Assembly (NCBI GenBank): GCA_018433865.1
Contig: JAHDQJ010000004.1
Location: 186,001 to 250,000 of the forward strand
Length of the DNA stretch: 64,000 bases
Direction: 5' to 3'
Origin: Spirochaetales bacterium
GTDB taxonomy: Bacteria > Spirochaetota > Spirochaetia > Sphaerochaetales > Sphaerochaetaceae
In this document: in pieces, positions 1 to 4,909 of the stretch
Position numbering within the stretch: the first letter of the stretch is position 1
How the letters are laid out: each line of letters starts with the position of its first letter
The notes under the pieces: model-generated
The model's database searches: none
The model's input: the letters and a program-made list of their open reading frames with translations, nothing else
Told to the model about the DNA's origin: nothing
Made by a program: the position numbers and the translations under genes

Positions 1-1525
1 GTTCATCGATCACGATTCCCTCGTCCGCAAGGTTTCGCAGGGCATCGCGGATCACCGCGAGCGAACGGTTCCCCAGCAGGTCGATCTTCACCAAGCCTGC
101 GGACTCGGTCCCCTCCTTCTCCCATGCCATCACGGGATATCCCTCCCGCGAACGTTCGATCGGAACGTGACGGCAGATAGGATCGGGGGTGATGACCAAA
201 CCGCCACAGTGCATCGATATGGATCGGGGGAGGCCGACGAGGCGGGACGCGAGGGAATATACACTCTTCCACAACGGATCGGTGATGACGCTGTTTCCTG
301 ATTCGAACAGTTGCCGTTCCATGCGTGTTATCTCGGTATCGGGGATGCCGTGTGCCCTCGCTGTCTCCCGGATTGCGGAGCGGGACTGGAACCGATTGTG
401 GTTTGCTACCCGAGCGCAGCGTTCCTCGCCGAAACGGTCGATGACCGCACGCAAGATACCGTCCCGCTCATCCCATGCGAAATCGACGTCGATGTCGGGC
501 GGGTCGGTCCGTGCGATGGTGAGAAACCTTTCGAAATAGAGATTGTGGGCGATAGGATCGACGTTGGTGATTCCCAAAGAGTAGGAGACGATGGAAGCGG
601 CTCCCGATCCTCGCCCGCAGGTCCTGCTTGCCATCGTCACGATATCGTCCATGACAAGGAAGTAGGGGGCAAATCCCTTGCGGCAGATGATGTCCAGTTC
701 ATAGTCGATCCTGCTGAGGATCGCATCGGAAAGTTCTCCGTAACGTCGCTCGGCGCCCGTAAGCACACGGTTGCGCAAGAGTGTGCCGGGATCCGAGCCT
801 GCAGTGGGGTAGTCGGGAAACACCAAGGACCCGAAGAGCCGGACATCCCCACATTCCCTCGCGATTTCCTCGGTATTGGCCAGGGCTTCCTGCCAGGATG
901 CGAATGCGTCGCGGTACCGGTCCATGTCGAGGATCAGGCTGGCCTGTTGCTCCTGCTCCTCCGGGGAGAGTGTCCCTACGGTCTTTCCGCATGCGATCGC
1001 ACGCAGGATCCGGTGTATCTCCCGCTCTTGCTCTTCCAAGAAGGAGGCGTCGTCGATGGCAACCAATGGGAGGGAAAGCTTCCGTGCAATGGGGATGCTT
1101 CCCATCCATCCCGGTGAGATGGCCGCAAAGAGTGAGTGTGCCGTGGGGGCGAGGAGGGAGAGCAGGGATGGAGACTTGACGGCAAGGACCAATCCTTCCG
1201 AGTCCTCGGCCAAAGCCTTCGCAACATCAAGGTCGGGGCACTCGTTGCGTCCGGTCAGCAATGTGGACAACCGGCTGTATCCGCGCCGATCCTTGACGAA
1301 GGCGAATATCGATCCTTCAGGGGTGGTCAGCTCGGATCCGATGATGGGACGGATGCCTGCTTCCGCAGCAGCCTCCCGGATGGCATGGACACCATACAGA
1401 TTGTTCCTGTCGGTGATGCCGATCGCCGTACACCCCTGTCTGCCGAGCAGGCTGATGATCTCCTTCGGTGAGGCTGTTCCCCACAAGAGGGAGAATGAGG
1501 ACCTGATGGCGATCCTGCTAGGCAT
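1..1525 (-). CDS. dnaE2: DnaE2-like error-prone DNA polymerase III alpha subunit (partial)
   Basis: About 508 codons of the N-terminal part are present; the gene runs off the left edge. Reading the minus strand from ATG at 1525 gives a PHP domain (SLLWGTASPKEI, then ITDRNNLYGV) and, near residues 308-348, the C-family polymerase core: GRGSGAAS, FERFL and the catalytic-Asp motif PDIDVDF (PDFDIDF in relatives). The usual PHP His motif at the N-terminus (HSxxS) reads RSSFS, so PHP metal binding is probably lost. The start overlaps the ImuB-like stop by 8 bases (ATGCCTAG), implying translational coupling. C-family polymerases next to ImuB are normally the SOS translesion enzyme DnaE2. DnaE2 rather than replicative DnaE1 is inferred from this context, since the C-terminal half is not visible. 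Confidence 0.85.
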   Translation of the reverse strand, partial: MPSRIAIRSSFSLLWGTASPKEIISLLGRQGCTAIGITDRNNLYGVHAIREAAAEAGIRPIIGSELTTPEGSIFAFVKDRRGYSRLSTLLTGRNECPDLDVAKALAEDSEGLVLAVKSPSLLSLLAPTAHSLFAAISPGWMGSIPIARKLSLPLVAIDDASFLEEQEREIHRILRAIACGKTVGTLSPEEQEQQASLILDMDRYRDAFASWQEALANTEEIARECGDVRLFGSLVFPDYPTAGSDPGTLLRNRVLTGAERRYGELSDAILSRIDYELDIICRKGFAPYFLVMDDIVTMASRTCGRGSGAASIVSYSLGITNVDPIAHNLYFERFLTIARTDPPDIDVDFAWDERDGILRAVIDRFGEERCARVANHNRFQSRSAIRETARAHGIPDTEITRMERQLFESGNSVITDPLWKSVYSLASRLVGLPRSISMHCGGLVITPDPICRHVPIERSREGYPVMAWEKEGTESAGLVKIDLLGNRSLAVIRDALRNLADEGIVIDE

Positions 1526-2693
1526 GGAACACCGCCGCTGCATGGGTCAGCGCCACCGATCCGAAACGGCGACGGGTGGCATCGACTGCCTGTTGCAGAC
1601 GTTCCTCGCGTGTCGGTCCCTCTGGAGTGAAAAGATCGGGTTCCCTCCGTGCGGGCGAAAGTTCCTGCAACGAGATGGTAAATGCCCTGATCCGCACCCG
1701 TCTCGACATGGCCCGTTCCATCGCACTCCAGGCTCCCCGCATGACCTCCTCGTCAAGTACCATGGGCGTACGTGCCCGGTACAGGCCCTCGCTCGTCGCG
1801 CCGTCCGCCCAGAAGAGGACGATATGGATGACCATGCAGGCCATCAGTTCCTGGCGCATCGCCAATCCTGCATCCTCCGCAACCGAGATCACCGCAGCAC
1901 GGATGGCATCGCGATCATGCGCGGGTTCGGCGAAATCGACCCGTTTGACGATCCGTCGGCAATCCATCCTCCTCGGATCGACGATCGACGCATCGATGCC
2001 CCGTGCTGCATTCCTGAGCGCGATTGCCCGCTTGCCAAGCAGCGCGAGCGCCTGTTGGTCATCCAGGTTTGCGACCTGTCCGATTTCGCTGAAGCCCGCC
2101 ACGGAGAGGAGCCTCCCGATGGCCGGGCCCACGCCAGGAAGCAATCCCACCTCCTGGCGGGCCAGGAAAGCCGCTTCCTCTCCTCCGTTCACCTGCGCGA
2201 TCCCGCTCGGCCTGATCGCCCGGGTTCCCACCTTGGCCACCAGCTTGTTCGAGGCGACCGCGACGGCAATGTCCATCCCGAGTCGCTCGTGAATCCTGTT
2301 CCGTATGCGGACCGCACAATCGACGGGAGGTCCGAAGAGCCGCGATGTTCCCTGCATGTCCAGAAAAAGATGTCCGCCGGAGTCGGATTGGATGGTGGGG
2401 CAGTAGTGCGATGCAATCTCATGAAGAGCCGCGTCGGCCTTCGCGCACGCAGACGAATCGGGATGTATGATCGTGACCGAGGGAAGCATGCGGATGGCAG
2501 TGGCAACGGGCATGCCGACATGGATTCCCTCGTCTCGGGCGTTCGGAGAGACGCTGATGACGACAGGTCGCGAGGACCCCTCCTTCGCGATGATGAACGC
2601 CTTGCGTGCCAGCATCGGTTCGGTACAGACGGCGACCGCTGCCGCGAAATCGGTCACATTGATGTGGATGATCTCGGCACGTTCACGTTCCAT
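1518..2693 (-). CDS. imuB: ImuB-like catalytically inactive Y-family DNA polymerase
   Basis: 391 residues with a DinB/ImuB fold. Motif I, IHIDMDxFYA in active enzymes, reads IIHINVTDFAAAV, so the catalytic Asp is Asn. The second motif (SIDEAYLD) reads SGGHLFLDM, so the Asp-Glu pair is gone. This loss is the mark of ImuB, a non-catalytic adaptor tying DnaE2 to the sliding clamp. A helix-hairpin-helix region is visible (LLPGVGPAIGRLL). Near the C-terminus REPDLFTPEG could be a beta-clamp-binding peptide. The start at 2693 is chosen because motif I follows directly; it overlaps the DUF72 stop by 11 bases. It is the middle gene of the operon. No ImuA/RecA-like partner is seen. Confidence 0.85.
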   Translation of the reverse strand: MERERAEIIHINVTDFAAAVAVCTEPMLARKAFIIAKEGSSRPVVISVSPNARDEGIHVGMPVATAIRMLPSVTIIHPDSSACAKADAALHEIASHYCPTIQSDSGGHLFLDMQGTSRLFGPPVDCAVRIRNRIHERLGMDIAVAVASNKLVAKVGTRAIRPSGIAQVNGGEEAAFLARQEVGLLPGVGPAIGRLLSVAGFSEIGQVANLDDQQALALLGKRAIALRNAARGIDASIVDPRRMDCRRIVKRVDFAEPAHDRDAIRAAVISVAEDAGLAMRQELMACMVIHIVLFWADGATSEGLYRARTPMVLDEEVMRGAWSAMERAMSRRVRIRAFTISLQELSPARREPDLFTPEGPTREERLQQAVDATRRRFGSVALTHAAAVFHA

Positions 2694-3480
2694 GGCAGTG
2701 CTCCCCGACCCCCAGGAGCCGTTGCAAGGCCTTGGCGTTCCTCGCCGCCTGTCCCCTCCGGTGATTGTTGAAGTAGACCAGGACCAGCTGGGCTGCGACT
2801 GCCAGGCCACGGATGCGCTCGGCAAGCGTCTCCAGTTCCCTGTCCGAATAGAGATAGTCGTACCGTGATGCAGCATCCGATCCCCACCAAGTCTCCTTGT
2901 TCCGCCCGTGGAGCCGTACATAGGCCAACGGAGAGGTCGATACGTCCATCATCGGGGGAGAACCGGGAATCTCGGGGAGATCAAGCGATACCAGGGGGAT
3001 CTTTCGTTCACGCAAGGCTTCGATCGTCCTGTTGTTGTACCACTGGCCGTTGCGGAACTCCACCGCCAGCGGCAATTCCGCGAGCGAACCGATCAGACTG
3101 TCAAGATATCGCCTCCGGTCGGGGTCATAGTGGAACGAGTAGGGGAATTGCAGCAGCACGGCACCCAAGGAACCCGCCTTTTGGAGTACCGAGGCGGCAG
3201 CGAGGAATTCCTGTGCATGGGAGCGCCAGGAACTGGGATCGACCGTATGGGTAAGCGATTCATGGGCTTTCATGGAAAAATTGACCGCTGGTGCTTGGCA
3301 CAGCATGGCGTGCATCTGCTGTACGCCGGGCATCCGGTAGTAACTGAAGTTCAGTTCGACCGTGGGAAACAGCGTCGCATAGGTACCGAGGAACATCTCC
3401 GGCTTGGTCCCCTCCGGATAGACGGGGCCGACCCATTCCGTGTAACTGTATCCCGATGTACCGATCAGTATGCGTGCCAT
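2683..3480 (-). CDS. DUF72 (YecE-like) TIM-barrel protein
   Basis: 265 residues. The N-terminus ILIGTSGYSYTEWVGPVYP and the later VEFRNGQWYN, YVRLHGRN and YFNNHRRGQAARNA are hallmarks of the DUF72/YecE family, a TIM-barrel family of unknown function; length is normal. It is the first gene of a three-gene operon with imuB and dnaE2, with overlapping junctions. No Shine-Dalgarno sequence precedes the ATG at 3480, and the predicted transcription start falls at or next to the ATG, so the message may be leaderless. Being the promoter-proximal gene of an SOS-type mutasome suggests a role in DNA damage tolerance, but this is inference only. Confidence 0.9.
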   Translation of the reverse strand: MARILIGTSGYSYTEWVGPVYPEGTKPEMFLGTYATLFPTVELNFSYYRMPGVQQMHAMLCQAPAVNFSMKAHESLTHTVDPSSWRSHAQEFLAAASVLQKAGSLGAVLLQFPYSFHYDPDRRRYLDSLIGSLAELPLAVEFRNGQWYNNRTIEALRERKIPLVSLDLPEIPGSPPMMDVSTSPLAYVRLHGRNKETWWGSDAASRYDYLYSDRELETLAERIRGLAVAAQLVLVYFNNHRRGQAARNAKALQRLLGVGEHCHGT

Positions 3481-3486
3481 ATCTCA

Positions 3487-3515
3487 TATATACTATACAA
3501 ACGTATAGTATTCAA
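3487..3515 (-). promoter_or_regulatory. SOS-type promoter with palindromic operator in the spacer
   Basis: On the minus strand a -35 TTGAAT (3515-3510), a 17-base spacer and a -10 TATATA (3492-3487) precede the DUF72 gene. The inverted repeat ATACTATAC-N4-GTATAGTAT (3490-3511) fills the spacer and touches both boxes, as a repressor operator would. LexA is the obvious candidate given the genes controlled, but no LexA gene or known spirochaete LexA consensus is available here. The predicted start site (about 3480) coincides with the start codon. Confidence 0.7.
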
Positions 3516-4792
3516 GAGAAATCGCCTCCTCCCCCATGCAGGATGTCCGAATAGATGACCGCACGGCCCCGGTCGCGCTCCTTCGCCACATAGAGCGCCA
3601 TCTCTGCCCGCTTGATCACGGTGTTGACCTCATCCCCATGCTCGGGACTGAGCGCGATGCCGATGCTTGCGGAGAGGAGGAGGGAGGATCCGGACAGTGC
3701 GAAGGGGGTCGTGAACGCAAGACATATTTTCCTGGCGACCGTGAACGCATCTTTCTTTGTATGGATGCCGTTGAGCAAGACGATGAAACGGTCCCGGTCG
3801 AGCCTGGCGACAAGGTCGCTCTTGCGCAGTTGTTCCTTGATCCTCAGGGCCGACATCTGAAGTATCTTGTCGCCTCCCTTGATCCCGAATTCTTCATTGA
3901 CCATGGCGAATCGGTCGATGTCGATGATGAGGATCGCCACCGAATCATCCGAATAGCAGGCTTGCGAAAGGGTAAGTTTCGCTTGGTCTTGGAAGAAATT
4001 CCTGTTCGGAAGCCCGGTCAGTATATCCTGTGTGGCAAGGAAGGAAAGCCGTTCCTCAAGCCGTTTCTGGACCGTGATGTCCTCCACCGATCCGTCATGC
4101 CAGAGCAAGTTCCCCTGTGCATCGTAGACAGGGCGGGCGGAGGTCCTGATCCACAGGGATTTCCCGTCGGCCCGTGAAAGCTCGCACACCATCGAGCGGA
4201 CCGCATGCTCTTTCTCCATGCTCTGCATCCATGTCTTGCGAGCGTCGGGATCGGTGAAACATGAGAGCAGGTTGCCCGACGGTACCGCAGCCTGACGGGA
4301 GATTCCGAGCATGGAGGCCATCGTCTTGTTCAACTCGATGAGCCCTCCCTCCTTGTCGATGCGGAAGAGGCCGACGGGCACGCTGTCGAACAGCGATTCC
4401 GGATGTGCGCCGGGCGAGGTTTCCTGGCCATGATCCGAGGCGAGCGGTTCTTCCCGGATCGATTCCAGCTTCCGCAGGATACGGGAGAAAGCCGATTGCC
4501 GGTCCTCCAGGCTGATTGCCCCTTCGGCAGCGCTGTCCGAACTGACCAGCAACACCGCGCGGATCGAGCCGACTTCCTTCAGGATCTTCTCCATCGTCCG
4601 GGTTGGGTAGAAATCCACCATGTCGGCGGAGAGTATCGCAGCATCGAACCGTTGCCTCTTCAGGAACGCCAGTCCGTCTACCATGGAATCGACGCGGACC
4701 AGGTGAGGAATCCTCTCTTTGAGCCTCGACGCCAGATCATCCGTCGCATCGGTGGATTCAACCATGACGATCAGCCGCAATGATGCAAGCAT
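3512..4792 (-). CDS. PAS-GGDEF protein with degenerate active site
   Basis: 426 residues. The start at 4792 is supported by GAGGAGG five bases upstream. The N-terminal ~110 residues resemble a receiver-like fold (LRLIVMVESTDATDDL). A PAS domain follows at about 135-255 (FRIDKEGGLIELNKTMASML) with a PAC motif, then a GGDEF domain (about 262-420). The metal-binding Asp region (LIIDIDRFAMVN) is kept, but the signature GGDEF reads DRDRF, so the catalytic Glu is lost. The inhibitory I-site RxxD (RKSD) five residues upstream is intact. It probably binds c-di-GMP or acts as a scaffold rather than making c-di-GMP. The gene ends inside the mutasome promoter region. Confidence 0.85.
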   Translation of the reverse strand: MLASLRLIVMVESTDATDDLASRLKERIPHLVRVDSMVDGLAFLKRQRFDAAILSADMVDFYPTRTMEKILKEVGSIRAVLLVSSDSAAEGAISLEDRQSAFSRILRKLESIREEPLASDHGQETSPGAHPESLFDSVPVGLFRIDKEGGLIELNKTMASMLGISRQAAVPSGNLLSCFTDPDARKTWMQSMEKEHAVRSMVCELSRADGKSLWIRTSARPVYDAQGNLLWHDGSVEDITVQKRLEERLSFLATQDILTGLPNRNFFQDQAKLTLSQACYSDDSVAILIIDIDRFAMVNEEFGIKGGDKILQMSALRIKEQLRKSDLVARLDRDRFIVLLNGIHTKKDAFTVARKICLAFTTPFALSGSSLLLSASIGIALSPEHGDEVNTVIKRAEMALYVAKERDRGRAVIYSDILHGGGGDFS

Positions 4793-4909
4793 GTCGGCCT
4801 CCTCGGGCGTATTATCCGACTGCCACGCATCGTCTGTCAACAAGCGTTCGCGCCATCCTCACATGGAATTTGGGTTGTGTTCGTTCCCTTGCCGGAGCAT
4901 AATGGAGCC

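Follow-up and report, generated by a model that had tools for sequence, protein, structure and literature searches.

Why should an operon for error-prone DNA synthesis begin with a gene for a DUF72 protein and carry no gene for ImuA? The question is raised by a 64,000-nucleotide stretch of Spirochaetales bacterium DNA (contig JAHDQJ010000004.1, positions 186,001 to 250,000; the window in what follows), which belongs to a 2.91-Mb genome (G000, contig 47). A three-gene operon on the minus strand occupies the start of the window, and encodes a DUF72 protein, a catalytically dead Y-family protein (inactive PolY, or iPolY) and the polymerase DnaE2. Coordinates and domain matches agree with a preliminary description of this DNA, which had reported three overlapping genes for a DUF72 protein, a Y-family protein and a C-family polymerase; the overlaps are 14 bp (DUF72/PolY) and 26 bp (PolY/DnaE). 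The features are as follows:

3492 to 3509, minus strand: dyad operator of 18 bp, ACTATAC-N4-GTATAGT, just 5' of the DUF72 start codon and inside the spacer between a -35-like and a -10-like element
2683 to 3480, minus strand: DUF72 protein (YecE/Tm1631-type TIM barrel), 265 residues, first gene of the operon (PF01904, E = 2.7e-58)
1518 to 2696, minus strand: catalytically dead Y-family protein (ImuB-like iPolY), 392 residues (PF00817 IMS, E = 5.1e-27)
1 to 1543, minus strand: DnaE2, error-prone C-family polymerase, N-terminal 514 of 982 residues (PF07733, E = 2.8e-62; also PF17657, HHH_6 and PHP)

The dnaE2 gene runs past base 1 of the window to L003:8595, giving the full product of 982 residues.

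We propose, with a probability of about 0.6, that the locus is a damage-inducible mutasome operon of the ImuA-less iPolY-DnaE2-RecA type, and that DUF72 is a dedicated extra component of it which binds or processes damaged or gapped DNA, rather than a replacement for ImuA. The linkage that underlies this proposal was tested both ways, outward from the inactive PolY and outward from DUF72, using a family set of 61 relatives, a phylum set of 393 evenly sampled genomes and the 80 closest DUF72 loci. Within the family set, DUF72 lies directly upstream of the inactive PolY in all 12 PolY-bearing genomes, and no DUF72 was found in the family members without the operon. The phylum sample gave the same picture: all 26 inactive-PolY loci scoring at least 251 bits have DUF72 directly upstream. 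None of the next four PolY matches (196–214 bits) does, and the one among these four with readable catalytic motifs retains them, like an active PolY. Viewed from the DUF72 side, 51 of 54 operon-type loci with room (that is, with enough downstream sequence) have a PolY within 400 bp downstream, and DnaE2 follows PolY in 44 of the 47 PolYs with room. The loci on this side come from relatives with labels such as Sphaerochaeta, Treponema and Spirochaetales; many were assembled from metagenomes, and a handful of organism labels (such as 'Burkholderiaceae' for L114) are questionable.

Gene order and overlap persist as DUF72 identity falls from 76% to about 32%, and the flanking genes are not conserved, the largest common cluster being present at 5 of 44 loci upstream and 5 of 33 downstream of the operon. 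Chance adjacency was rejected on the counts above, and background synteny was rejected as the cause of the linkage because the flanking genes are not common to the loci. A maximum-likelihood tree of 81 DUF72s places the operon-linked sequences on one side of a branch with 100/100 support (52 of the 55 rows there); the other side holds 25 unlinked rows and a single locus from Chitinivibrionales, in which DUF72 and an inactive PolY are paired. In spirochaetes DUF72 nearly always opens a mutagenesis operon. The linkage of DUF72 to ImuB and DnaE2 is conserved and meaningful, and it holds in the family, in the phylum sample and among the closest DUF72s; the contrary case, in which DUF72 would stand only rarely beside imuB in relatives, clearly fails.

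Individual loci vary in composition. L142 (Treponema sp.) and L159 (Chitinivibrionales), both metagenome-assembled genomes (MAGs), carry DUF72 and an inactive PolY with no DnaE2 in the 6.9 and 2.6 kb downstream, respectively, and the polymerase partner of these pairs may be located elsewhere or lost. Three operon-clade DUF72s in Treponema MAGs have no adjacent PolY: in L137 the PolY is 1.1 kb off after an insertion, and in L119 and L138 there is no PolY on the contig. Genomes G294 and G380 of the phylum sample have two inactive-PolY loci each, which suggests duplicated mutasome operons. The source genome of the window contains a second DUF72 (G000:C4:78240-79106, 27% identity), away from the mutasome genes.

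The alignment of 50 PolY homologues bears out the earlier reading that the Y-family protein lacks its catalytic carboxylates: D8 is replaced by Asn in 49 homologues and by Ser in one, D103 by Gly in all 50, and E104 by His, Asn or Ser. Its tail, helical in the structure model, holds a clamp-motif-like 'PDLF' (xDLF) and a segment resembling the RecA N-terminus, LQxAVDxxRxRFGxxxLT, the pattern of which is found in 48 of the 50 homologues. Alignment of the PolY tail with the RecA N-terminal oligomerisation motif by hhalign scored 18.6, where 100 column shuffles gave a mean of 8.2 and a maximum of 17.6, so that the likeness is statistically modest and suggestive. The window PolY stops 24 residues after the start of this motif, and no domain of the size of ImuB-C was found in the PolY homologues, most tails being short and a few extending 30–50 residues past the motif.

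The polymerase is taken to be DnaE2 because its frame, of 983 aa, is shorter than the other DnaE frame of the genome (1191 aa; DnaE1, located elsewhere), and it keeps its active-site motifs, PDIDVD and KIDLLG. Across 44 DnaE2 loci, some of them cut by contig ends, PD[IL]D[VI]D is present in 41 and K[IL]DLLG in 39.

A family-model search for ImuA (NF033429) gave no match above the cut-off in 25 genomes. The best sub-threshold match in the source genome is recA, and a RecA search of that genome found one full-length RecA. The operon therefore lacks ImuA, as had been noted from its gene content, and the genome has no separate imuA over the cut-off that could suffice for mutagenesis. Timinskas and Venclovas (2019) describe the RecA N-terminus-like motif together with mutasomes that combine an inactive PolY with DnaE2 and lack ImuA, RecA being proposed in its place (PMC6511836), and Timinskas et al. 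(2026) treat ImuA-less DnaE2B-iPolY-RecA mutasomes likewise (PMC12926913). These systems (scDinB2-like and gbDinB2-like) share with the spirochaete operon an inactive PolY adjoining dnaE2, a RecA N-terminus-like tail and a clamp-like motif, and have neither imuA nor ImuB-C. Because ImuA was not found and the PolY tail has RecA-binding-like and clamp-binding-like motifs, the operon is, as judged from its sequence, of this published type with DUF72 added. RecA would be the natural substitute for ImuA, given the likeness of the PolY tail to the N-terminal oligomerisation motif of RecA. DUF72 is unmentioned in the searched passages of both papers, whereas here it heads the operon almost without exception and has an operator of its own. 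In common with the canonical ImuA-ImuB-DnaE2 system, a dead Y-family protein and DnaE2 are combined in one probable damage-inducible operon; in contrast to it, the spirochaete operon has DUF72, and lacks both ImuA and an ImuB-C-sized extension.

The dyad at 3492–3509 is the sole perfect copy in the genome. It lies between TTGA(AT) -35-like and TATA(TA) -10-like elements spaced about 17 nt apart, and a repressor bound within this spacer would block the promoter. A generic sigma-70 scan of the intergenic region upstream of DUF72 returned no promoter, so the promoter elements are those recognised by eye. The dyad is present, identical or nearly so, upstream of DUF72 in 12 of 12 family operons. 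Among operon-linked DUF72 loci, 48 of 50 score at least 10/14 for the dyad, mostly at -29, compared to 5% expected from shuffles, and a score of at least 10/14 is reached at only 3 of 25 unlinked loci; as the consensus was derived from the window's own site, weight is placed on the shuffles and the unlinked controls. An AC-N4-GT geometry is typical of many LexA boxes. A search of 25 operon genomes found LexA in every one, and LexA is the likely repressor at the dyad, an assignment that keeps to 'likely' because lexA itself carries the dyad in two genomes only (G031 and G086, each with a 12/14 match near the start of the gene). In these spirochaetes lexA and recA sit within other transcription units, without a dyad of their own.

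The DUF72 product matches PF01904 with 198 bits (curated cut-off 25.3), and in a profile comparison it matches 1VPQ (TM1631) with E = 3.7e-62. An AlphaFold2 model (predicted local distance difference test score 82.9, predicted template modelling score 0.85) has other DUF72s as its closest solved structures: 1vpy (Z = 27.4, root mean square deviation (rmsd) 2.3, 238 residues aligned) and 1vpq (Z = 26.3, rmsd 2.9, 251 aligned). The next matches form a broad TIM-barrel group, including endonuclease IV (5zhz; Z = 14.5, rmsd 3.6, 223 aligned) and SacUVDE (3tc3; Z = 14.0, rmsd 3.8, 219 aligned). As modelled, the fold by itself discriminates no function.

At the mouth of the barrel, residues N44, Y47, Y48, K71, H78, E141, R143, D167, R189, H191, R193, N238 and N239 are invariant in the linked DUF72s, and Q111 is conserved in 92% of them; E15, T40, D127, L130, D179 and Y236 are conserved mainly in linked DUF72s. 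For Tm1631, Konc et al. predicted contacts to DNA or phosphate, the function there being predicted only (PMC3828134), and 9 of these 12 contacts are identical in the window DUF72. Tm1631 (1VPQ) and EF0366 (1VPY/1ZTV) are of the same family and fold, with a predicted DNA-contact pocket (Asn44, Tyr47, Tyr48, Lys72, His79, Gln114, Arg145 and Arg191) that is conserved, but no mutasome link is described for them, and their function is a prediction as well (PMC3828134). Since the invariant pocket includes most of the contacts predicted for Tm1631, binding or processing of damaged DNA is our best guess for the activity. The near-constant position as first gene of a mutagenesis operon likewise suggests that DUF72 and the error-prone polymerase probably act side by side on damaged DNA. 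We thus favour the part of the earlier idea in which DUF72 would process a related substrate.

DUF72 also occurs beside mutasomes in other phyla. The Desulfosarcina ovata plasmid NZ_AP021877 carries lexA, DUF72, an inactive PolY and DnaE2 in that order; lexA at the head of this homologous operon also speaks for LexA as the repressor. Plasmids of Paraburkholderia acidisoli, Paraburkholderia sp. D15 and Caballeronia grimmiae have the order imuA-imuB-dnaE2-DUF72, and in Caballeronia sp. SBC2 DUF72 is divergent from imuA-imuB-dnaE2. With an identity of about 30%, the DUF72s from Burkholderiales are remote, so these look like separate associations; as ImuA is present in these loci, DUF72 is not a substitute for it. 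Phage and most plasmid DUF72s are not beside mutasomes, a mutasome adjoining DUF72 in 3 of the 11 plasmid records inspected from the DUF72 search. In the jumbo phage RHph_TM61 of Rhizobium (MN988561.1, L283:4001-5258), the DUF72 gene overlaps one whose annotation is DNA recombination-mediator protein, a further case of DUF72 adjoining a gene of DNA metabolism. A survey of PolB2 mutasomes found DUF72 enriched 'to some degree' beside them (PMC11791011). That PolB2-iRadA-PPB2 system, with DUF72 and SRAP neighbours, resembles the present one in having DUF72 beside a damage-inducible mutasome operon; it differs in using a family B polymerase rather than C and Y families, without DnaE2, and in the degree of the association, DUF72 being nearly constant in the spirochaete operon. 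No paper linking DUF72 to ImuB or DnaE2 was found in the literature searched; one retrieved article (PMC5720831) was a false match that concerns DUF721.

Taken together, the proposed pathway would run as follows. A LexA-type repressor, presumably LexA itself, would be bound to the dyad between the two promoter elements and leave it after DNA damage. The dead PolY would then serve as a platform, its xDLF motif docking onto the beta clamp and its RecA-like tail onto RecA. DnaE2, with its active-site residues in place, would carry out error-prone synthesis. DUF72, through its invariant, phosphate-friendly barrel-mouth pocket, would bind or process the damaged or gapped DNA on which the mutasome works.

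Several observations weigh against this proposal. Sugar epimerases match the DUF72 fold equally well (Z up to 14.8), so that nucleases are not singled out, and no metal is seen in the DUF72 crystal structures (PMC3828134). The barrel-mouth pocket is also conserved in the 25 unlinked DUF72s, and its chemistry may therefore be general rather than pathway-specific. On the side of the partners and of regulation, the match of the PolY tail to the RecA N-terminus is statistically weak, lexA lacks an upstream copy of the dyad in most operon genomes checked, and of the other dyad-like sites in the relative G031 the two inspected adjoin non-SOS genes.

The conservation of the pocket in stand-alone DUF72s bears on another explanation, that DUF72 serves this damage response as an enzyme but away from the mutasome, its substrates being for example damaged nucleotides, RNA or small molecules, and is co-transcribed for co-regulation only. 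Its chemistry would then need no mutasome, its fold is common to sugar-phosphate isomerases and epimerases, and co-induction alone could hold the genes together. We nevertheless regard this as unlikely, at perhaps one chance in a few: co-regulation would have to account for a gene order and overlap that persist over the whole range of DUF72 identity while the flanks vary, for the presence of DUF72 with DnaE2 operons of a different arrangement in other phyla, and for the fact that other SOS genes (such as recA and lexA) stay outside the operon in spirochaetes. The constant 1:1:1 linkage of the genes would also suit a DUF72 that serves the mutasome without catalysis, as a subunit or adaptor in, for example, lesion recognition or clamp handover, and the six residues conserved mainly in linked DUF72s could mark its interface. 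Invariance of the whole barrel-mouth pocket points instead to ligand binding or catalysis, which makes a purely structural role improbable.

The preliminary description had suggested that DUF72 may take the role of ImuA. DUF72 does precede imuB, the usual position of imuA, and imuA was not found; this suggestion is nonetheless strongly disfavoured and, in our view, very improbable. DUF72 is a TIM barrel and not a RecA fold, the resemblance of the PolY tail to the RecA N-terminus would provide for RecA in that role, four Burkholderiales plasmids have DUF72 together with imuA-imuB-dnaE2, and ImuA-less mutasomes without DUF72 have been published, according to the available portions of the two reports (PMC6511836, PMC12926913).

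Two sets of neighbouring genes complete the locus. A gene for a PAS-GGDEF protein (window 3512–4843, minus strand) ends directly upstream of the operon, its stop codon overlapping the -35-like element. Downstream of dnaE2, outside the window, lie rnf/nqr-like membrane redox genes (L003:4648-8518, minus strand), recognised by eye from their translations; this neighbour is absent from most relatives' operons.

The ImuA-less mutasome type and the occurrence of DUF72 near PolB2 (PMC11791011) are already published; what is new here is the near-obligate DUF72 partner. DUF72 is widespread, 9 of 14 well-known control genomes having it (E. coli, B. subtilis, Caulobacter and archaea among them), and is without proven function; its near-obligate place in the operon across the phylum, together with its recurrence elsewhere, ties it to translesion synthesis. 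The linkage suggests that mutasomes include a DNA-acting partner beyond the polymerase, the platform and RecA or ImuA, and makes the function of DUF72 directly testable. More tentatively, and at somewhat less than even odds, we hypothesize that DUF72 recurs as a fourth component in error-prone mutasomes (those with DnaE2, with or without ImuA, and those with PolB2), and that it is an enzyme of lesion or gap processing which would prepare or finish the DNA for translesion synthesis. If true, this would be the first pathway assignment for the DUF72 family.

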